Part shown: one piece after another, positions 3,691-22,158 of the stretch
How the letters are laid out: the number at the start of each line of letters is the position of its first letter
Position numbering within the stretch: the first letter of the stretch is position 1
Assembly: GCA_026625165.1 (NCBI GenBank)
Contig: CP112999.1
Location: 868,001-932,000, forward strand
Reading direction: 5' to 3'
Length of the DNA stretch: 64,000 bases
From: Methanoregula sp.
Lineage (GTDB): Archaea; Halobacteriota; Methanomicrobia; Methanomicrobiales; Methanospirillaceae
Translations under genes and position numbers: made by a program
Notes under the pieces: generated by a model
The model's input: only the letters and a program-made list of their open reading frames with translations
The model's database searches: none
What the model was told of the DNA's origin: nothing

Positions 3691-4341
3691 CTATGCATCC
3701 CTTCTTTTCAGCAGATCCGGCCGGATATGCACCAGATATGCCACCATGAACCCGGTGATCACCGACTCGATCACGGCAACAGCAAGGTTAATTGCGACGA
3801 GAAGTGAGAGCCCGGCAAGGACCTGATCCGCGCTCTGGGTAACCCCCTGGATCCCGGAGATGAGGATAATGGCAACCATGACCCCATTGCCGCAAACAAG
3901 CCCGGAAAATGTCGCAGTGGCGGCACAGACAAACGGGCTTTTTACTGCTTTTGAAAACAGGTAATAGAGGGCTCCTGCCACCACCACTTCGGTCACGTTG
4001 ACAAGCACGTTTGCCCCGATCATGCTCCAGCCGCCATGCCCGATTGCGGCGGCGAGGATATTGATAATGAATACAATGAGGCAGCCGACGGCCGGGCCGG
4101 TGAGGATGCCAACCAGCGGGGTCATGCTGAGGTGGACCCCGCCGGCAACCGGTATCTCGAATAAAAAGACCACGAACAACGCTGCGGTGCAGAACCCGGC
4201 GAGCGTGACAAGGCGGCCGTCGATCTTTTTTACTGACCGCAGCCAGAGAACCGAACCCCCGATAATCAGGATTGCGGCGATCCACCAGACCGCGACCCAG
4301 AACAGTGCCAGTGTCCCGTCTTCAAGATGTATATGTGCCAT
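3691..4341 (-). CDS. cbiM: ECF-type Ni/Co transporter substrate-binding subunit CbiM (cluster 1)
   Basis: A 216-residue integral membrane protein with about six or seven helices. It starts MAHIHLEDG, a variant of the family's MHIPDG start in which the N-terminal amine and the early His coordinate the metal; here an Ala comes before the first His and a second His follows at position 5. The central LTGPAVGCLIVFIINILAAA and GGWSMIGANVLVN segments match CbiM/NikM. In this cluster no small CbiN or PDGLE partner is present. The start is supported by GGTGA seven bases upstream. The gene is last in the set, 133 bases after cbiO, and a TATA-like element in the gap suggests it may also have its own promoter. 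Cobalt versus nickel preference cannot be read from the sequence. Confidence 0.85.
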   Translation of the reverse strand: MAHIHLEDGTLALFWVAVWWIAAILIIGGSVLWLRSVKKIDGRLVTLAGFCTAALFVVFLFEIPVAGGVHLSMTPLVGILTGPAVGCLIVFIINILAAAIGHGGWSMIGANVLVNVTEVVVAGALYYLFSKAVKSPFVCAATATFSGLVCGNGVMVAIILISGIQGVTQSADQVLAGLSLLVAINLAVAVIESVITGFMVAYLVHIRPDLLKRRDA

Positions 4342-4445
4342 GATCGTTCACCGGATGCTGTAACTTTGGGGGTTGTTGTATTCTCATCACTCACCATTAT
4401 CGCAGGAAAATATCAAGGTTATTGAAAAGTTGGGCTTACTCCAAT

Positions 4446-4456
4446 TTTTTTATATC
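4446..4456 (-). promoter_or_regulatory. Possible TATA element for cbiM (cluster 1)
   Basis: The minus strand reads GATATAAAAAAAT in the 133-base gap between cbiO and cbiM, about 105 bases before the cbiM start. The composition suits an archaeal TATA box, but the leader would be long; position and role are inferred. Confidence 0.35.
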
Positions 4457-4474
4457 GCGCAGGTCTCCCCCCTT

Positions 4475-5353
4475 TCATTCACGAAGCTTGGCAATGACTT
4501 CGTCCAGCCGGACCGGCTGCCCGCGTGGGCTGATTTCATGCCGGGCGCAGTATTCGAGATATACCCGGACCAGCACCGGAATTTTCAAACCTGCCTCTGC
4601 GATAAGGTCCGGGTCATAGAAGATCTCCGCAGGAGCACCTTCGGCAAAAACCGAACCGTTTTTTACCAGGCACACCCGGTCAGCGATCCGTGCGGCAAGG
4701 TCGAGGTCATGGGTTGCGATCACAACACTGATGCCATGCCGGTTCTTGAAATCGAGGATGAGCCTCTCGATCATCTCACAGTGAACAGGGTCAAGATCCG
4801 AGGTCGGTTCGTCGAGTGCGATAATCCGGGGCTTCATGGCAAGGATACCGGCGATCGAGACCAGCCGTTTCTGTCCCCCGCTCAGATAGTTGGGCAATTT
4901 GTGGATGAGATCCGCAGCACCCACCGCTTCAAGCGCGCCCATCGCAGCCGTTTTTGCTTCAGCAACGGACATGCCCATGTTAAGGGGCCCGAACATCACA
5001 TCATCGATGACGGTCGGGGCAAAGAGCTGGTCTTCAGACCGCTGGAACACGATGCCCACCTCCTTCCAGAGATCTTTGCGTTCTCCGCCGACAATCGACC
5101 TGCCATTGACCCAGATATCTCCCTGCGAAGGGGTGAGGAGCCCGTTTAAGTGTTCGATCAACGTGGACTTGCCCGATCCGTTGGGACCGCAGAGCGCGAC
5201 AATCTCGTTTTTTAACACGGAGAAGCACATGTCGTGGATCCCAACACTCCCGTCAGGGTAGGTATGGCTGGCACAGTCCACATGGATCAGTTCCCGTTCC
5301 CGGTCAACGGGCGGGCAGTGGGGGGCAAGGGGATCCCTGCGTATTACCGTCAT
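4475..5353 (-). CDS. cbiO: ECF-type Ni/Co transporter ATPase CbiO (cluster 1)
   Basis: A 292-residue ABC ATPase when started at the ATG at 5353. Walker A is GPNGSGKST, the Q-loop lies in GIVFQRSEDQLFAPTV (the extended form typical of ECF ATPases), the signature is LSGGQKR, Walker B is RIIALDEPT, and the switch His lies in IATHDLD. It hydrolyses ATP to drive metal uptake through CbiM and CbiQ. A longer frame runs upstream to 5494 but overlaps cbiQ and looks like a shadow. The gene follows cbiQ after 4 bases, so the two are surely co-transcribed. About 30 residues come before the ABC domain, a little more than in the paralogue at 10497. Confidence 0.9.
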   Translation of the reverse strand: MTVIRRDPLAPHCPPVDRERELIHVDCASHTYPDGSVGIHDMCFSVLKNEIVALCGPNGSGKSTLIEHLNGLLTPSQGDIWVNGRSIVGGERKDLWKEVGIVFQRSEDQLFAPTVIDDVMFGPLNMGMSVAEAKTAAMGALEAVGAADLIHKLPNYLSGGQKRLVSIAGILAMKPRIIALDEPTSDLDPVHCEMIERLILDFKNRHGISVVIATHDLDLAARIADRVCLVKNGSVFAEGAPAEIFYDPDLIAEAGLKIPVLVRVYLEYCARHEISPRGQPVRLDEVIAKLRE

Positions 5354-5357
5354 GTTA

Positions 5358-6173
5358 CTACCCACCTGTGCCTGGAACCATCCACGTGACAATGGCAATC
5401 GTGATCGCAAACGCGCAAATGACCCCGTAACCGCACCAGCCGGGTCGCGGGATTCCAGTCCCTGCAACGTACGACCCCTGATATCCGCGTGCATTCATTG
5501 CCTTGTTAACCCGTTCCGCCCTTTCGAAGGAACGGATGAACACGAGCGCAAAGATTTCGGCAAACAGCCTTCCCTGCACCCACACGGAACGGATGATCCC
5601 GCCGCCCCGGGACCGTACTGCCTTGATCATAGTGCCGGCCATGGCAAGGGTCAGGAACAGAAACCGGTATGCAAGTAAGAAGATCTGGTCAAGGGGAGAG
5701 GGAAAAAGGCGGGAGATCATACCTGAGAAGTGCCGGTACCGCGTTGTCATTAAGAAGAACAATGAGAAGGTAACCGATATCATGGCTTTGAGAAGGAGGG
5801 TGATCACAAGGATGGCGCCGTTGTCCGATAGTGAAATGGCAACCCCTGCAATCGAAAAAGAGACGAGTGCGGTTCCTGGTTCGCCCCATGCCATGATCCC
5901 CACCAGTGAAAGTACAAACACGAGCGGCAGGAGATACCATGCGAACAGTTTTTTTAACGGGAGCCCGGCACTCCAGTATACCAGAAGGACCATGAGGTAG
6001 AGTCCTGCACAGACAACGAGGTTACGGGTGAGCGTTACAAGCAGGATCACACATACGAGTGCAGCGAACTTCGTCCATGGGCTCACCTTTGAAAAGAACG
6101 AGTCCCCGCGTTCGGCATACGCGGTGATCAGGTCAAGATCCGGAATATGCTGCGAGATCATCGTGGAACTCAT
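5358..6173 (-). CDS. cbiQ: ECF transporter transmembrane subunit CbiQ (cluster 1)
   Basis: A 271-residue membrane protein with about five or six helices. The first cytoplasmic stretch (SFFSKVSPWTKF) and the late coupling region RGGGI...RSFERAERVNKAMNARGY match the EcfT/CbiQ family, whose Ala-Arg-Gly motifs contact the CbiO ATPases. It transmits ATP hydrolysis to the CbiM subunit. It lies between the metalloregulator gene, 9 bases upstream, and cbiO, 4 bases downstream. The paralogue at 11327 is of similar length but clearly diverged, so the two clusters are not a recent duplication. Confidence 0.88.
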   Translation of the reverse strand: MSSTMISQHIPDLDLITAYAERGDSFFSKVSPWTKFAALVCVILLVTLTRNLVVCAGLYLMVLLVYWSAGLPLKKLFAWYLLPLVFVLSLVGIMAWGEPGTALVSFSIAGVAISLSDNGAILVITLLLKAMISVTFSLFFLMTTRYRHFSGMISRLFPSPLDQIFLLAYRFLFLTLAMAGTMIKAVRSRGGGIIRSVWVQGRLFAEIFALVFIRSFERAERVNKAMNARGYQGSYVAGTGIPRPGWCGYGVICAFAITIAIVTWMVPGTGG

Positions 6174-6182
6174 ACAAAAACC

Positions 6183-6659
6183 TCATGGAACATCAGGAAT
6201 GGACGTGTTCCCGGTTCTTTTTTTCGTCCGGTTTTCCTCCCCCATGCACCCGGTATCATGGGTGATTGAACCGCAGGTGCCTTCCTGCGGGTGCCCCATC
6301 GTCCGGCAGATCCGGTCAACTGCGTTCTTTGTGACATAGCTCTCGAATCGCGATGCCTCTTTGCATGCCGCTTCCTGTGAAAACCCGTAATGCGTCAGCA
6401 TGAGGCTGAGGATCCGGTGCCGTTTTACAAAAAATCCGGCATACTGTTTTCCCCGGCTGGAGAGCACGATCCTCTGGTACGGGGCATGAGTAAGAAACCC
6501 ACGTTCAGTCAGGTCACTGATCGTTTTTGAGATCGTGGAAGCATCAACCGAAAAGTGGGTGGCGAGATCTATAGTCTTTGCTGATCCTCCGCGCTCGTAG
6601 ATATACTTGAGATATTCGACCTTCCGTGCCGGGAGGTCATGCCCGTTCTCATCAGCCAT
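6183..6659 (-). CDS. DtxR/MntR-type metal-dependent regulator
   Basis: About 158 residues from the ATG at 6659. The N-terminal half is a winged helix (KVEYLKYIYERGGSAKTIDL, then VDASTISKTISDLTERGFL) as in DtxR/MntR, and the next part (KRHRILSLMLTHYGFSQEAA...EASRFESYVTK) corresponds to the metal-binding dimerization domain. The tail carries a Cys/His-rich stretch (CRTMGHPQEGTC, HDTGC) that could bind metal. The gene is first in an operon with cbiQ, cbiO and cbiM, so it most likely senses nickel or cobalt and controls its own uptake operon; this is inference from context. A TTG start at 6683 is possible, but it would overlap the palindrome at 6680-6698 and leave almost no leader. Confidence 0.8.
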   Translation of the reverse strand: MADENGHDLPARKVEYLKYIYERGGSAKTIDLATHFSVDASTISKTISDLTERGFLTHAPYQRIVLSSRGKQYAGFFVKRHRILSLMLTHYGFSQEAACKEASRFESYVTKNAVDRICRTMGHPQEGTCGSITHDTGCMGEENRTKKRTGNTSIPDVP

Positions 6660-6679
6660 ACAGACTTCAGTTGAACCTG

Positions 6680-6698
6680 CCAAATCATGAAGGTTTGG
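6680..6698 (-). promoter_or_regulatory. Candidate operator of the metalloregulator-cbiQO operon
   Basis: A 19-base inverted repeat with arms CCAAA and TTTGG and a 9-base spacer. It falls at the expected transcription start, about 20-25 bases after the TATA-like element at 6709-6718 and about 20 bases before the ATG. DtxR-type operators are typically about 19 bases long, so autoregulation at this site is likely, though unproven. Confidence 0.5.
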
Positions 6699-6718: not shown

Positions 6719-6859
6719 CAGCATCGAGTGAATGGGAAAGATTGGGACTTCATTAAGGGAAATAGAGAGCAACCAGCCCTGCAATCTTTTATTAATCTGA
6801 CCATACATGTTGTGTTGGGCATCTTTGTAAAGGGTTATGCTTAATAGAGATTTGTGTGT

Positions 6860-7984
6860 ATGATACAATCGTTATTTTCAGGAAAAACCTGCATAACAAT
6901 CGTTATTTTAATATTTTTTTTAACACCCGGATCCGGTGCTATGGCACACAGTGACAATTCCCTTGCCATTGTTGTACAAGATATAAAGACCGGAGAACCT
7001 TTGGGAGGAGCTGTGATCTATCTGGATGGGGCGTTTAAAGGGACAACCTCCCCGCAGGAAGCTGGCGGAACCCTGCAATTACATGATATTAAGAACGGGA
7101 CACACACGATGAGGATTACCCTGATGGGATACAGGGACGAATATATAAAACTTCTCATCCCGGATGAAAAAAAGGTTGAAGTGATGATGAATAAAGGATT
7201 TCTGTATTCCCTGAACCGGGATGACCATTATGCTAAAGGAATAAATATTATCTTTATTCCCTCATCGACTACCTTCAACTGCACGGAAAATAAAAAAGTT
7301 CCTGTCTCAACCTATACAAAAAATGAAAGCAGGTTCAGAGAAGATGTCCTGCAAATCATAAACCGCACCTTCCTGAACCTTGATCGGATCACATCCCCCT
7401 TGGTTCCTCTCCCGGCACAGTACCAGGACAGGTTTAATTTTTATTATTATTACAATCCGAAATTTTTTGCCGATGCGTTTTCAGGTTGTGCCGGAACTGT
7501 CCCGGATGCTTACTGGAATGATGTGACTTTTGGGGATATCACGGTCATTCTCTACCCTGCATACTACGGGACGTATTCCAATACTGCCTGCCTGCCTGCC
7601 GGGTGTTATAAGGCATCAGGCCCGGGAAGAAGACTCATGAAAACACCGGCCGACAAAGAATTATTGTTCACCCATGAAACCGGCCATGCAGTATTCGGGC
7701 TCGTTGATACTTACTGCGGCACCACCTATTATTTCGAGAACTTCCCGCACCCGAATGTCTGGTCGTCATATGACAAATGCAGGGAAGATGCGATGGCTGA
7801 TAAGCGAAATTCTACAAACTGCAGGCAGATCGAACAAAAATCTCCCATTACCTGCTCAAAGCAGTTCTGGCGCTGGGATCCTGACCCCGATATTATGCAA
7901 AATGTATTTTCCGGAACCTTCGGCGCAGCATCTACTCAGCGCATTAGCTATATACTAGACAATGCATGGAGTGGATCGCCATGA
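6860..7984 (+). CDS. Secreted M64-like zinc metallopeptidase with N-terminal carboxypeptidase-regulatory-like domain
   Basis: About 374 residues from the ATG at 6860 (an in-frame GTG lies two codons earlier). A signal peptide covers roughly residues 1-29. Residues about 35-110 form a beta-sandwich like carboxypeptidase regulatory or PEGA domains (VQDIKTGEPLGGAVIYLDG...). The catalytic segment, around residue 272, reads HETGHAVFGLVDTY. This fits the M64 pattern HExGHxxxGLxDEY, with two His ligands, the catalytic Glu and a third ligand Asp at the usual spacing. Cysteines around the site suggest disulfides. The protein probably cleaves peptides outside the cell. Its stop lies 19 bases inside the next gene, a membrane-anchored receiver protein, so the two are translated together. 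The exact peptidase family is inferred from the motif. Confidence 0.75.
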   Translation: MIQSLFSGKTCITIVILIFFLTPGSGAMAHSDNSLAIVVQDIKTGEPLGGAVIYLDGAFKGTTSPQEAGGTLQLHDIKNGTHTMRITLMGYRDEYIKLLIPDEKKVEVMMNKGFLYSLNRDDHYAKGINIIFIPSSTTFNCTENKKVPVSTYTKNESRFREDVLQIINRTFLNLDRITSPLVPLPAQYQDRFNFYYYYNPKFFADAFSGCAGTVPDAYWNDVTFGDITVILYPAYYGTYSNTACLPAGCYKASGPGRRLMKTPADKELLFTHETGHAVFGLVDTYCGTTYYFENFPHPNVWSSYDKCREDAMADKRNSTNCRQIEQKSPITCSKQFWRWDPDPDIMQNVFSGTFGAASTQRISYILDNAWSGSP

Positions 7985-9279
7985 GATGGAACACGATTCT
8001 TTTTGTTGTCGCATGCCTTGCAGTGCTGTCATTTGCAGTGCCTGTTCATACACAGCCTCTCCACGGATATGAAAAAATACTCGTGATTCAGCTCGATTAC
8101 GACAATGGAGTCTATCATGAGGAGTCGCAGTATATCCGGTACGGACAGGGCCCAAATCTCAACATCATGTCGGGTAATCTCAGAGCAGTTATCTCGGATG
8201 TTAATGATAAAGAAATCAAATCATTTTTTGTCATGGAGCCCGGAATTGCGACAGGGGACTCAATCGGTACCACCGAAGGGGGCATTCCCAACCTTAAAGA
8301 ATATTTGGAACTGTCCGGTTCCGATGAAATTGTCTTAACCATCCCCTACAAGCCGGATATGCAGGTGTTAAGGCTCTATGATGCACAGGGTAACACCCCC
8401 ATCATCTCCGTCGACCTCACCGTTTCACCCTCAGTATTCTGCGCAGATTATCCTGCAGATCCCGATTGCATCCAGCTCAATCTGCAATCCCGCAGACCTG
8501 CACCGGACACGAATATCCCCGCGTTTTATTTTTCGATTTTTGTCGTTCTCATCGTAATCGCAGCGACAACAGCATTCATTTTTAAGCGAAGAAAAACCGT
8601 GTCAGAAATTTTAAGGAAAAAGAGAGTCCTTATTGTTGATGATGAGCCGGATCTCGTTGAACTGGTCAGACTGCTTCTCGAAAAGCAGGGATATCAAAGT
8701 ATGTCTGCCCCCGGCGGGAAAGAATGCCTGGATCTAATCAGGCAAAAGAAAAATATTCCTGATGTCATTCTCCTTGACATCATGATGAAGCCCATGGATG
8801 GCTGGGAAACCCTTGAACAGATAAAAACCAATCCTGAAACAAAGGATATTCCTGTCCTGATGCTCACCGGGAAACAGCTCACTGCCGCAGAGGCGAAACA
8901 ATACCACGTCTGTATTGAGGATTATATCATGAAACCATTTGAAAAAGTTCAACTTTATTCAGCGATCGAACATGTCCTGATCCGGAAAAAAAATATCAGT
9001 GAGAATGTTTCTATTGCCAAAAAGGCAGGGGTTGCGCAGGAGACGTTCTGTGAATATGCAAAACTCTCAAGGCATGTTGATGTGAATAAAAAACTGATTG
9101 GTCTCCTTCAGCAGGCCTACGGCATGCAGAGCATAAACGATTTGAAAGACGGTGAAGAGTACAGGATTATCGAACATATGATTATCAATACGAGATACAG
9201 TGAAGACCGTCTTGAACAGATACAACGTGAAATTTTTTCAGCATTCACAGCAAAAGGGTATCCGGTCCCTGTCTGGTGA
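7966..9279 (+). CDS. Membrane-anchored receiver-domain protein with extracytoplasmic sensor-like domain
   Basis: Up to 437 residues; an ATG at 7981 is an alternative start that keeps the signal sequence. Order of parts: signal or anchor helix (about 8-28), an extracytoplasmic domain of about 155 residues, a transmembrane helix (about 186-206) followed by the basic stretch KRRK, then a full receiver domain (about 218-335) with VDDE (Asp225, Asp226), the phospho-acceptor Asp271 in LLDIMM, Thr301 and Lys323. A C-terminal region of about 100 residues is probably helical. There is no histidine kinase domain, DNA-binding domain or other output module. A receiver joined by a membrane helix to an outside domain is unusual: phosphorylation inside may change the outside domain or the peptidase encoded just upstream. 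The receiver resembles the free one at 31399 (shared DIMMxPMDGWETLE). Confidence 0.8.
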   Translation: MEWIAMRWNTILFVVACLAVLSFAVPVHTQPLHGYEKILVIQLDYDNGVYHEESQYIRYGQGPNLNIMSGNLRAVISDVNDKEIKSFFVMEPGIATGDSIGTTEGGIPNLKEYLELSGSDEIVLTIPYKPDMQVLRLYDAQGNTPIISVDLTVSPSVFCADYPADPDCIQLNLQSRRPAPDTNIPAFYFSIFVVLIVIAATTAFIFKRRKTVSEILRKKRVLIVDDEPDLVELVRLLLEKQGYQSMSAPGGKECLDLIRQKKNIPDVILLDIMMKPMDGWETLEQIKTNPETKDIPVLMLTGKQLTAAEAKQYHVCIEDYIMKPFEKVQLYSAIEHVLIRKKNISENVSIAKKAGVAQETFCEYAKLSRHVDVNKKLIGLLQQAYGMQSINDLKDGEEYRIIEHMIINTRYSEDRLEQIQREIFSAFTAKGYPVPVW

Positions 9280-9449: not shown

Positions 9450-10106
9450 ATGCACATACCTGACGCATTTATACCGATCCCGCAGGGCATTGTATACTGG
9501 ATCGTTGCCCTGGTCTTTGTTGCACTTGCATTACGGTGGGCAAAGAATGAAATGAGCGAAGAAAAGATCCCGCTGATTGCAGTTCTTGCAGCCGGTATCT
9601 TTGCCCTCCAGTCTTTCAACCTTCCCGTCTCCATGGGGACGAGCGGGCATCTTGTCGGAGGCGCACTTGCAGCAATCGTGCTTGGATCACCCTTTGCCGC
9701 GGTCTTTATCCTGACACTCGTCCTTATCGTGCAGGGGGTCTTGTTTGGAGACGGCGGGATCACGACCATGGGTGCGAATATCCTGAATATGGGAGTGATC
9801 GGGGGCTTTGTCGGTTTCTACACTTTTAAGGGACTGATGGCAGCGACAAAAAATGTGAGCATCGCTGCATTCGTGGCAGCATGGCTTGCCTGCCTTATCC
9901 CGGCGCTTGCCTGTGCTGTTGAGATGTATTTAGCCGGCACCTTCCCGCTCAGGGAGGGATTGGTTGCAATGGGGTTATACCATGCGCTGATCGGGGTAAT
10001 CGAAGGGTTCGTCACTGTCGTTGCTATCCACCTTATTGTTGCAGCCCGCCCGGATATTGTTGATTTTAAGATCGCAGCAAAAGATGCACAAGGAGTGAAC
10101 GTGTAA
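9450..10106 (+). CDS. cbiM: ECF-type Ni/Co transporter substrate-binding subunit CbiM/NikM (cluster 2)
   Basis: A 218-residue membrane protein beginning MHIPDAF, the classical CbiM/NikM start in which the free N-terminus and His2 bind the metal. Later segments (SFNLPVSMGTSGHLVGGALA and GGITTMGANILNMGV) contain the further His and the Gly-rich loop of the family. It has about seven helices. Its stop overlaps the start of the PDGLE gene by one base, and cbiO and cbiQ follow, giving a complete transporter. Unlike the CbiM at 3691 it has the canonical N-terminus and a PDGLE partner, so the two transporters may differ in metal or affinity. Nickel versus cobalt is not decidable here. Confidence 0.9.
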   Translation: MHIPDAFIPIPQGIVYWIVALVFVALALRWAKNEMSEEKIPLIAVLAAGIFALQSFNLPVSMGTSGHLVGGALAAIVLGSPFAAVFILTLVLIVQGVLFGDGGITTMGANILNMGVIGGFVGFYTFKGLMAATKNVSIAAFVAAWLACLIPALACAVEMYLAGTFPLREGLVAMGLYHALIGVIEGFVTVVAIHLIVAARPDIVDFKIAAKDAQGVNV

Positions 10107-10462
10107 TGGATAACAAGACCTTCCTCGTAATTGGTATTATTGTTGCACTGCTTATCGGCGTGGTTGCCGTGTTCCTTGCGTCGGGAGATCCCGATGGCCT
10201 TGAGAGCACTGCGCTCATCGTGCAGGGGCAAAAAAGCCTTACCGGCGATACACCTCCTGATGCTGAAATCCACGAAGATACGACCGGGAAATTCTCATAC
10301 GAGTCGCCCATGCCGGATTATTCACTCGGTGAAGGACTTGGGCCATTGGGCGGCATCGTTGCGATAGTTGCCGGAACACTGCTTGCCTTTGCACTTGTGC
10401 TGGGCATCTCAAAACTGCTTGTTCTTAAGAAAAAACAGAAAGAAGCGCAGGTAAACCAATAG
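10106..10462 (+). CDS. PDGLE-domain small subunit (CbiN-like) of Ni/Co transporter
   Basis: A 118-residue protein with an N-terminal membrane helix (about 5-24), the signature DPDGLE directly after it (about residues 28-33), an extracytoplasmic middle part and a second helix (about 80-105) with a Lys-rich cytoplasmic tail. This is the layout of PDGLE proteins, which replace or fuse to CbiN in many nickel/cobalt ECF transporters and help load the metal into CbiM. It overlaps the preceding cbiM by one base and sits 34 bases before cbiO. Confidence 0.85.
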   Translation: MDNKTFLVIGIIVALLIGVVAVFLASGDPDGLESTALIVQGQKSLTGDTPPDAEIHEDTTGKFSYESPMPDYSLGEGLGPLGGIVAIVAGTLLAFALVLGISKLLVLKKKQKEAQVNQ

Positions 10463-10496
10463 GACTATAATTTTTTTCACCCAATGTACCTGACAC

Positions 10497-11330
10497 ATGC
10501 ACCTCATTGAAACACGGGATCTCTGTTATTCTTACCCCCATAGCGTCCGGGCACTGGAAGGGATCAATTTTATCGCCCCGCGGAATGCGAGGATTGCGGT
10601 TATCGGTTCAAACGGTGCCGGCAAGAGCACGCTTTTCAAGCACTTCAATGGTATCTTTAAACCTACTTCAGGCTCGGTCCTTATCAGGGGAGAACCTATC
10701 ACAAAACATAATATCCGTGAGGTGCGGAAGTTCGTCGGGATCGTGTTCCAGAATGCTGACGACCAGATCTTTTCCCCCACGGTCGAGCAGGATGTCGCCT
10801 TTGGCCCGACCAACCTTGGCCTGGATGAAGAGACGATCCACCACAGGGTGCATGAAGCCTTAAAAATTGTCGGGATAGAGGACCTTGCCGGGCGTGTCCC
10901 CCACCACCTGAGCGGCGGGGAGAAAAAGCGTGTCGCCATTGCCGGAGTCATCGCCATGGAACCGGAAGTGCTGGTGCTCGATGAACCGACCGCCGGCCTT
11001 GACCCTCAGGGCGTCCACGACCTCATCGGTTTTGTCAACTCTCTCTCAAGGAAATACGGGATGACGGTCATCTTCTCAACCCATGATGTCGCTCTTGTCG
11101 CCGAGGTTGCAGACTATATCTACGTCATGAACAAGGGACGGTTTGTCGCGGAAGGTTCAGTGGAGGAAATTTTCATCCAGCCGGACATGCTCAAATCCAT
11201 GCGTCTTGATGTCCCTGTCCTGCCAAAGCTGATCCAGTCGCTGAAGAAAAATGGCGTTCCCGTTACCATGGCATATACCTACGATGATGCCGAAAAGGTC
11301 CTGATACAGGCATTCAAAGGAAAGATATGA
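10497..11330 (+). CDS. cbiO: ECF-type Ni/Co transporter ATPase CbiO (cluster 2)
   Basis: A 277-residue ABC ATPase. Walker A is GSNGAGKST, the Q-loop region reads GIVFQNADDQIFSPTV, the signature is LSGGEKK, Walker B is VLVLDEPTAG, and the switch His lies in FSTHDV. It forms the motor of the second metal importer. The ATG at 10497 directly follows the PDGLE gene, and the stop overlaps the cbiQ start by 4 bases (ATGA). Compared with the CbiO at 4475 it lacks the roughly 30-residue N-terminal extension. Confidence 0.9.
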   Translation: MHLIETRDLCYSYPHSVRALEGINFIAPRNARIAVIGSNGAGKSTLFKHFNGIFKPTSGSVLIRGEPITKHNIREVRKFVGIVFQNADDQIFSPTVEQDVAFGPTNLGLDEETIHHRVHEALKIVGIEDLAGRVPHHLSGGEKKRVAIAGVIAMEPEVLVLDEPTAGLDPQGVHDLIGFVNSLSRKYGMTVIFSTHDVALVAEVADYIYVMNKGRFVAEGSVEEIFIQPDMLKSMRLDVPVLPKLIQSLKKNGVPVTMAYTYDDAEKVLIQAFKGKI

Positions 11331-12154
11331 TCGAAGAGCTTTTCCTAATTGAAAAACAGGCATACCGCGACAGCTTCATACACCGGCTTGATGCACGTGT
11401 TAAGATCATACTTGCGTTTGCCGTTATCATCGCTATTGTGGCTGTCCCTTATTCCCCGATGGTCTATACGGTTGGTGCCATCTTTTTTTTATTTTTTATA
11501 CTTTTATGGGCAGCGTCAAAATTATCCCCGTTCGTTTATGCAAAACGGCTGCTTGCGATTGTCCCGATTTGGGGGATTATTATCTTTTTCCAGATTTTTT
11601 TCAAAAACAAGTATTATACAGATTACCATGTCCTTTTCTCCTTGCCGCTGGGTATCAACATCTATACCGAATCCATTGAGTTCGCGTCCATTCTCGCAGT
11701 AAAATTTCTTGTCTGTATATCTTTTATCATCCTTCTCTCATCCACAACAAAACTGCAGGACCTCCTGCAGGGAGCAAGCCGTCTCGGACTTCCTGCAGAG
11801 ATCGCTCTCGCGCTTGGCATGATGATCCGCTACCTCTTTGTTTTCGGGTACATTTTCCGTAAGATCAACCACACGCTGGAAACCCGGTGTTTCGATCCAT
11901 TCGACCCGGCGCTTCCTTACCGGTACCGGCTACGGCAGCTGGGATACACGATCGGGACAATGTTTATCCGGTCCTATGAACAGGGCGAACGGGTATACAC
12001 CAGTATGCTCTGCCGGGGGTACGGGAGGGACAGCCATCTTTTTATCACAAAAAAGCCATTAAAACGGAGCGAATGGGTTTTTCTATCCATCAGCCTGTTC
12101 CTTGTCGTGTCAATCCCTGTCTCGATCTGGATCACCGCAACCCGTCTTATCTGA
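11327..12154 (+). CDS. cbiQ: ECF transporter transmembrane subunit CbiQ (cluster 2)
   Basis: A 275-residue membrane protein. The N-terminal part reads YRDSFIHRLDARVKIILAF, where CbiQ proteins have a conserved Asp-x-Arg-x-Lys. The late cytoplasmic part ETRCFDP...RSYEQGERVYTSMLCRGYG is the EcfT coupling region with its Arg-Gly motif. It couples CbiO to CbiM. The start overlaps the cbiO stop in ATGA. A T-rich tract just after the stop, near 12163-12170, probably ends the operon transcript. Confidence 0.88.
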   Translation: MIEELFLIEKQAYRDSFIHRLDARVKIILAFAVIIAIVAVPYSPMVYTVGAIFFLFFILLWAASKLSPFVYAKRLLAIVPIWGIIIFFQIFFKNKYYTDYHVLFSLPLGINIYTESIEFASILAVKFLVCISFIILLSSTTKLQDLLQGASRLGLPAEIALALGMMIRYLFVFGYIFRKINHTLETRCFDPFDPALPYRYRLRQLGYTIGTMFIRSYEQGERVYTSMLCRGYGRDSHLFITKKPLKRSEWVFLSISLFLVVSIPVSIWITATRLI

Positions 12155-20952: not shown

Positions 20953-22158
20953 TTACGGCGATCCTGCCGCTTGCGGGGTGATCCTGTAATTTTCCAATGG
21001 TACAGAGATCTCGAACCGCACGCCCGTCCCCGGTTCTCCGGTCTCCCGGATCACGATACCGGTAATCCCGAGGATTTCGCGGGATAAAAACATCCCAAGC
21101 CCGGTGTTTTTCCCAAATCCCCGAAGAAAGATGCGTTCCTTGTCTTCCATGGCAATGCCGACGCCATTGTCCGTATACACGATCACCAGTCCTTCCGGTG
21201 TTTCGCGGCATGAGAATGCCATGGTCGTGACATGCTTGCCATGCCGGATAGAGTTTTCCATAAGATTGTAGAACACTTTCTCGATAAGAGGATCGGCATA
21301 GATCACAAGGCCGGAGAATGCAACTTCAGGGGAGATCCCGCCTGCCTTCAGCGAGTCTGCCGCCCTCCTAATTACGGCACGAACATCCTCCCACTCCGGT
21401 GCTTTCACGCCAATGTCCTGGTAAAACCTCGTGAACTCGATCTGTCGCTGGATAGCTTCGGAAATCTCCAGTTCCTTTTCAATATACTCTAGGATCACCG
21501 GGTTCTTTCCTGCCTCCTCTTTTGAGATTTCAAGGAACGCGAGCAGCGCCATGAGCTTATTCAGGATGTCGTGCCGTGTCACAGACGAGAGAATGTTGAG
21601 TTTCTGGTTTGCCTGCTGCAGCGCCTTGCCGATCTTCCCGCGTTCGATGACATCGTTTTTGAGTATCTCGTTGACCTCGGAGAGTTCGCGGGTCCTGTCG
21701 GCAACCCGGCTCTCGAGCGTACGGGCCAGATCCTCCAGTTGTTTCTGCGTGATGCGGCGCTCTGCTACCTCCTGCTCGAGGTTTGCCTGGTTGCTCCGGA
21801 TCTCCCATATAAGGAGTGCGACGACTGCCATCATCAGGATGAAGACCGCACGGTTCAGGAGATCGGACTGGTTGGTGCGGGCTGTTATTATGCTCCCGAC
21901 AAGGAGTGCACCGGATATCAGCCAGGCCGTAAAAAAAGGGGAGTACCGGTTGGTGAGCCAGATTGACATGAGGAGCGGGATAAGGTACAGTCCCCAGATG
22001 ACAAAACCGGCAGGTACAAGGACATCGGCCGCGAGGATGCCGGCGCACAGGCAGAGCATCGCGAGGACCATGAGCCGGTCTTTTTCCTGCTCCGTTCTTC
22101 CGAGGTCGATAAATACCATTGCGGTCCCGTCCCCTTTTAACTCAACATAGTAATTCAA
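20953..22158 (-). CDS. Membrane-bound sensor histidine kinase
   Basis: Up to 401 residues (an ATG 13 codons in is an alternative start). Four or so membrane helices (about 30-120) form the N-terminal sensor, with no large outside loop. A long coiled coil follows (about 122-185), then the H-box around His196 in SSVTRHDILNKLMALL, the N-box FYNLMENSIRHGKHV, and a G-box DNGVGIAMEDKERIF with GLGMFLSREI. The HDxxNK form of the H-box is typical of methanogen kinases of the HisKA_7TM-type neighbourhood. It lies alone; its partner receiver is unknown, but two receiver proteins occur in this window (7966 and 31399). Confidence 0.88.
   Translation of the reverse strand: MNYYVELKGDGTAMVFIDLGRTEQEKDRLMVLAMLCLCAGILAADVLVPAGFVIWGLYLIPLLMSIWLTNRYSPFFTAWLISGALLVGSIITARTNQSDLLNRAVFILMMAVVALLIWEIRSNQANLEQEVAERRITQKQLEDLARTLESRVADRTRELSEVNEILKNDVIERGKIGKALQQANQKLNILSSVTRHDILNKLMALLAFLEISKEEAGKNPVILEYIEKELEISEAIQRQIEFTRFYQDIGVKAPEWEDVRAVIRRAADSLKAGGISPEVAFSGLVIYADPLIEKVFYNLMENSIRHGKHVTTMAFSCRETPEGLVIVYTDNGVGIAMEDKERIFLRGFGKNTGLGMFLSREILGITGIVIRETGEPGTGVRFEISVPLENYRITPQAAGSP

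Follow-up and report, generated by a model that had tools for sequence, protein, structure and literature searches.

The window (the whole 64,000-nucleotide stretch of Methanoregula sp. DNA that was analysed) carries a pair of genes on the + strand, flanked on each side by a transporter gene group. Both open reading frames were found where the sequence-only reading had placed them. The upstream gene encodes a predicted secreted peptidase and the downstream gene a predicted membrane-anchored partner, with the following features:

6860..7984, + strand: predicted secreted M64-like zinc peptidase, 374 aa (open reading frame from ATG 6860, N-terminal hydrophobic segment, relatives)
6974..7186, + strand: CarboxypepD_reg-like beta domain of the peptidase (PF13715, 3.7e-8, above its cut-off)
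7208..7975, + strand: catalytic domain (profile A1, match at G000:875208-875975)
7673..7714, + strand: zinc motif HETGHAVFGLVDTY, of the form HEXXHXXXGXXD (invariance among family members)
7968..7984, + strand: junction of the two genes, with GGAG 7968-7971, ATG 7981, TGA 7982-7984 and a 4-base overlap (sequence)
7981..9279, + strand: predicted membrane-anchored partner of MetOD3-REC-MetOD2 architecture (open reading frame; conserved start in alignment A4)
8065..8517, + strand: outer domain (profile A2), predicted all-beta (profile and model; equivalent to the domain that single-chain relatives have behind the catalytic domain)
8527..8583, + strand: predicted membrane helix, then KRRK on the cytoplasmic side (hydropathy; helix in model)
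8626..8970, + strand: receiver domain, phospho-acceptor Asp codon at 8776-8778 (PF00072, 1.1e-24; receiver fold; conserved residues)
8983..9240, + strand: MetOD2 (methanogen output domain 2), helical (PF18548, 7.1e-17; helices in model)

For the peptidase, an in-frame GTG at 6854 is a possible alternative start. The partner has 432 aa when read from ATG 7981 and 437 aa when read from ATG 7966, the former being most likely the true conserved start in view of the starts of its homologues and of the GGAG standing 9 nt upstream. The gene overlap of 19 bases given by the sequence-only reading thus applies only if ATG 7966 is used, and is reduced to 4 bases with the favoured start. Since this ATGA overlap start is also possible in 16 of 26 related pairs, translational coupling of peptidase and partner is suggested. 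The flanking genes at 3691-6173 and 9450-12154 have the appearance of two ECF-type transporter sets (membrane component, ATPase, transmembrane protein). Of these, the downstream one at 9450-12154 appears to resemble the cobalt type, and a small helix-turn-helix-like regulator lies near the pair at 6183-6683.

The N-terminus of the peptidase contains one hydrophobic segment, which reads as a signal peptide by hydropathy, and its relatives share 41-65% identity. The motif HEXXHXXXGXXD, which is that of peptidase family M64 (PMC12402451), is present as HETGHAVFGLVD at 7673-7708; by motif, H272, H276 and D283 would be the zinc ligands and E273 the catalytic residue. The pattern HE..H......D.Y is unvarying in the 20 family members of the A1 alignment, which displays 19 invariant columns. 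Both elements of the earlier claim of an exported zinc peptidase, the N-terminal hydrophobic segment and the motif, were therefore recovered.

Strict membership of M64 was rejected on the basis of the Pfam model PF09471 (cut-off of 26 bits): the window peptidase gave no match in a Pfam search, its relatives reach 11-21 bits, and one fused relative reaches 20 bits. A broad family profile (A7) searched against the PDB aligned over positions 10-160 with 9ekk (E=0.0035), 4df9 (E=0.039) and 3p1v (E=0.17), the match to 3p1v spanning both halves of the aligned region. The same profile also matches FtsH, at the HExxH region only, and apart from FtsH its best alignments are those with M64 structures. 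The window peptidase has the HEXXHXXXGXXD motif in common with the M64 peptidases (IgA protease ThomasA, BF3526 and BACOVA_00663; PDB 9ekk, 4df9 and 3p1v), and its family differs from them by its scores below the Pfam cut-off, by a cysteine-rich C-terminal part of the catalytic domain, by the split of the gene and by the fusion to a receiver. On these sequence comparisons it is M64-like and is not assigned to M64, so that the label given by the sequence-only reading holds as a kinship visible with family profiles and not as a Pfam match. A structure model of the peptidase, computed from a 5-row alignment, reached a mean pLDDT of 47.5.

The partner is organized, in order, as a signal peptide, the outer domain, one transmembrane helix, the receiver and MetOD2 (Pfam, hydropathy), and the KRRK following the helix fits a predicted positive-inside topology. 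The outer domain, the single helix and the full receiver announced for this protein were all confirmed (hydropathy, PF00072), but the chain does not end with the receiver: MetOD2, overlooked in the sequence-only reading, follows REC at residues 340-425 (PF18548, 7e-17, 61.6 bits for a cut-off of 30.6). A receiver fold is predicted, with Z of about 19-20 to CheY/PhoB-type structures. Fold-library searches with the partner model returned receiver domains, and a search of the PDB with the outer-domain profile found nothing.

An architecture of this kind, MetOD3-REC-MetOD2, was listed by Galperin et al. 2018 for four "membrane-anchored" proteins of Methanoregula with a MetOD3 of 180 aa, MetOD3 being described there as a lineage-specific output domain without assigned function (PMC5847659). 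The window partner fits this entry, of which A7I6X2 is the reference protein, by its domain order, its membrane anchor, its N-terminal part of about 180 aa, its MetOD2 and its Methanoregula-type host.

Conservation of the pair and origin of the outer domain

Separate searches with profiles A1 (catalytic domain) and A2 (outer domain) covered 232 genomes of the class, and the matches of both fell in the same 36 genomes. The outer domain is encoded directly downstream, on the same strand, at 46 of the 47 peptidase matches, the 47th being a fragment of 79 positions; of the 49 outer-domain matches, 46 belong to a pair and three stand no more than about 3 kb from one. Because order and strand are repeated at 46 of 47 peptidase loci, the association of peptidase and partner is conserved and is not a matter of chance. 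The pair, whose occurrence in other methanogens the sequence-only reading had proposed as a check, is thus not unique to the strain, and close relatives are Methanoregula records. Neighbouring genes vary among loci, only the peptidase and outer-domain genes recurring in neighbourhoods of up to 16 kb. Clear A1 and A2 matches coincide again in a phylum-wide sample of 393 genomes, and a phylum-wide search with A2 alone gave no clear match unaccompanied by a peptidase (one marginal match, E=0.008, with an internal stop).

Two particular neighbourhoods were recorded. At L135:860-3728 (G221:C2), a peptidase gene stands between two outer-domain copies, one per side, on the same strand. A 1702-aa protein with five ice-binding-like domains (L072:8757-13865) is encoded close to a pair that has a receiver, and L083 has related genes nearby; as a guess, the 1702-aa protein might be a surface substrate of the peptidase.

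In five other archaea, the catalytic domain and then the outer domain are encoded in one open frame. One of them (G087) belongs to the same order as the window genome and four (G439, G292, G372 and G484) are more distant members of the same phylum, the outer-domain scores being 142, 89, 76, 42 and 37 bits, respectively. In these single-chain relatives the outer domain precedes an anchor or a stalk. Beta-sandwich domains likewise come after the peptidase domain in the M64 enzyme ThomasA, constructs of which failed to express without them (PMC12402451). The one-chain relatives, together with the result that no clear outer domain was found away from a peptidase, indicate that the outer domain most likely began as the C-terminal part of the peptidase itself and became a separate, membrane-anchored gene product in Methanoregulaceae. 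The occurrence of both domains in one chain in these five archaea supports a physical association of outer domain and peptidase, as part of the earlier interpretation; the one-chain order shows shared ancestry and proximity, and we infer from it that the split chains may still bind each other. In G087 (L075:1126-3711) the single-chain peptidase terminates in a PGF-CTERM-like tail scoring 12.5 bits, short of the 18.8 of the cut-off, so that anchoring may originally have relied on an archaeosortase signal.

The outer domain could instead be no working part of the enzyme but its substrate, its inhibitor or a propeptide. Neighbouring genes that are probably coupled in translation would suit an inhibitor or a dedicated substrate as well. 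This explanation is considered very unlikely: the single-chain relatives have the domain C-terminal to the catalytic domain and before the anchor or stalk, the domain is retained over large distances, and peptidases more often keep such domains for docking or structure.

Gain and conservation of the receiver

Many partners end a few residues past the membrane helix (L068, L073, L076, L077, L078, L079 and others). In the catalytic-domain tree, the receiver-bearing pairs form one clade (SH-aLRT 96), with the window pair inside. The many relatives with outer domain and membrane helix only point to anchoring as the ancestral job of the partner, and the receiver-MetOD2 unit is read from the tree as a later addition gained by one Methanoregulaceae clade. 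As receiver-free pairs are common, control through the receiver would not be essential to the enzyme, and the receiver on which the sequence-only reading built its proposal is not essential to the pair. The tree of receiver-MetOD2 sequences does not unite the membrane forms, yet their monophyly is not rejected (AU p=0.48). Repeated, independent acquisition of the receiver was considered and is unneeded on the peptidase tree.

Within the receiver clade, two copies scored without receiver (L103 and L066), the partner at L091 is cut by a contig end, and G011 carries two REC copies (L071 and L072). A loss of the receiver in G197 (L103) was discarded, as the sequence has Ns and receiver remnants lie downstream in other frames. 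The partner at L066:7508-8059, in the second copy of G045, ends after the outer domain, without helix or receiver; it is possibly a soluble form or a decaying duplicate.

All the residues expected of a receiver are present in the window partner (DD225/226, D271, T301, Y320 and K323, numbered from 7966), and the acid pair, acceptor Asp, Thr, Tyr and Lys are kept in all 20 of the 20 complete REC copies. REC is also the most conserved segment of the partner, with a mean pairwise identity of 0.55, for 0.43 in the outer domain and 0.39 in MetOD2. These two observations together suggest that the phospho-switch works. A non-functional receiver pocket, named in the sequence-only reading as incompatible with its proposal, does not agree with phosphorylation residues that are intact in all complete copies. 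The same conservation bears on an explanation in which the partner is an anchor and a structural domain, as in the many relatives made of outer domain and membrane helix alone, and in which the receiver-MetOD2 tail has no effect on peptidase activity, either placing the complex (for example via kinase clusters) or acting as a phosphate sink. We regard it as unlikely, since all residues for phosphorylation and switching (T, Y) are retained throughout the 20 copies, which suggests that the switch matters.

The window partner is about 48% identical to a soluble REC-MetOD2 copy of the same genome (G000:1686681). Soluble response regulators of this type share the receiver and MetOD2 with the window partner but are without signal peptide, outer domain and membrane helix, all three of which the window partner has. 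Two tandem soluble REC-MetOD2 genes (L161:5898-7305; G000:1685897-1687304) adjoin a Roadblock/LC7 gene, and genes for RNA polymerase subunits (with Rpb2 and Rpb1 domains) follow immediately downstream of them; such tandem pairs are repeated in several relatives. MetOD2 may be concerned with transcription.

The main rival of inside-out control is a signal in the opposite direction, in which the outer domain would sense what has happened to the bound peptidase (engagement of a substrate, self-cleavage or loss of zinc) and signal inward, with receiver-MetOD2 as an output, perhaps nucleic-acid- or protein-binding, and phosphorylation as a second input. Such an outside-in signal would account for the retention of MetOD2 behind the receiver, and agrees with the proposal of MetOD2 as an HTH-like DNA/RNA-binding module (PMC5847659) and with the position of the soluble REC-MetOD2 pair of the genome beside RNA polymerase subunit genes. 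However, MetOD2 is less conserved than REC, by the identities given above, and some copies (L071, L072 and L083) have a shorter MetOD2 C-terminus. Receivers are, moreover, normally driven by a kinase rather than by a fused ectodomain, and the outside-in direction is considered rather unlikely.

No kinase was found as a constant neighbour of the pair across neighbourhoods of up to 16 kb, and kinases stand near two pairs (L063 and L065). An operon partner or a kinase partner was likewise rejected, the shared neighbourhood content consisting of the two pair genes only. The kinase at 20953, which the sequence-only reading had proposed to test for phosphorylation of the receiver, has HATPase_c and lies over 11 kb from the pair, to which no link was found.

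Candidate mechanism and comparison with known systems

The preferred reading is that of a tethered two-chain ectopeptidase whose anchor has turned into a response regulator, with kinase-driven inside-out control. One ectopeptidase would be made of two chains, the secreted chain holding the zinc active site and the second supplying the former C-terminal beta domain, fixed to the membrane by one helix, and the catalytic chain would dock on the outer domain at the cell surface. In one Methanoregulaceae clade, the inner end of the helix would have been extended by a receiver-MetOD2 unit like that of the soluble response regulators. One of the cell's histidine kinases would phosphorylate the receiver, a change in the conformation or oligomeric state of which would pass via the helix to the outer domain, and the holding, placement or activity of the peptidase outside would be altered as a result, under an inside-out direction of control.

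Taken as a whole, this reading is given an even chance. Its first half, the tethered two-chain enzyme, is probable; if that half is granted, the phosphorylation-driven inside-out half has an even or slightly better chance of being correct. The more particular proposal of a response regulator with an ectopeptidase output, in which phosphorylation of the receiver would act through one helix on a split-off metallopeptidase domain, is made tentatively and falls somewhat short of even chances, as does its component that a receiver-MetOD2 unit was captured by a membrane-anchored enzyme fragment.

LapD/LapG is a known case of inside-out control over an exported protease (PMC3032545, PMC3032553). As proposed for the window pair, a membrane protein receives a signal with its cytoplasmic part and handles an exported protease with its outer part (PMC3032545, PMC3032553, PMC4359373). 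In contrast, LapG is a cysteine protease and the window enzyme a zinc peptidase, LapD binds c-di-GMP whereas the window partner carries a phospho-receiver, and LapD and LapG are not remnants of one enzyme whereas the window outer domain would be a split-off enzyme domain. Pfam found neither a LapG-type cysteine protease nor GGDEF/EAL domains of a c-di-GMP receptor in the window pair. LapD/LapG is thus at most a functional analogue of the window pair, differing in every part.

In the literature searched, MetOD3 was found named only by Galperin et al. 2018 (PMC5847659). Compared with that listing, the domain of the window family is predicted to be extracytoplasmic, occurs also without a receiver, is always accompanied by a peptidase, and is in one chain with the peptidase in other archaea. 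The statement of the sequence-only reading that no system of this form had been described needs to be narrowed, since the MetOD3-REC-MetOD2 architecture was listed in 2018 and inside-out control is known from LapD/LapG. What appears new is that a peptidase obligately accompanies MetOD3, that MetOD3 is predicted to be extracytoplasmic and most likely derives from the peptidase, and that receiver-free and single-chain forms exist.

Such a layout could let the cell control an enzyme that acts outside. To our knowledge, most archaeal response regulators are without known output, and the present case names a concrete candidate, an extracellular enzyme. MetOD3, listed as an orphan domain, gains a partner and an origin, and forms with and without receiver can be compared in one lineage, even within one genome. 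If true, the mechanism would mean that the problem solved by LapD/LapG in bacteria has been solved a second time, in an unrelated way.
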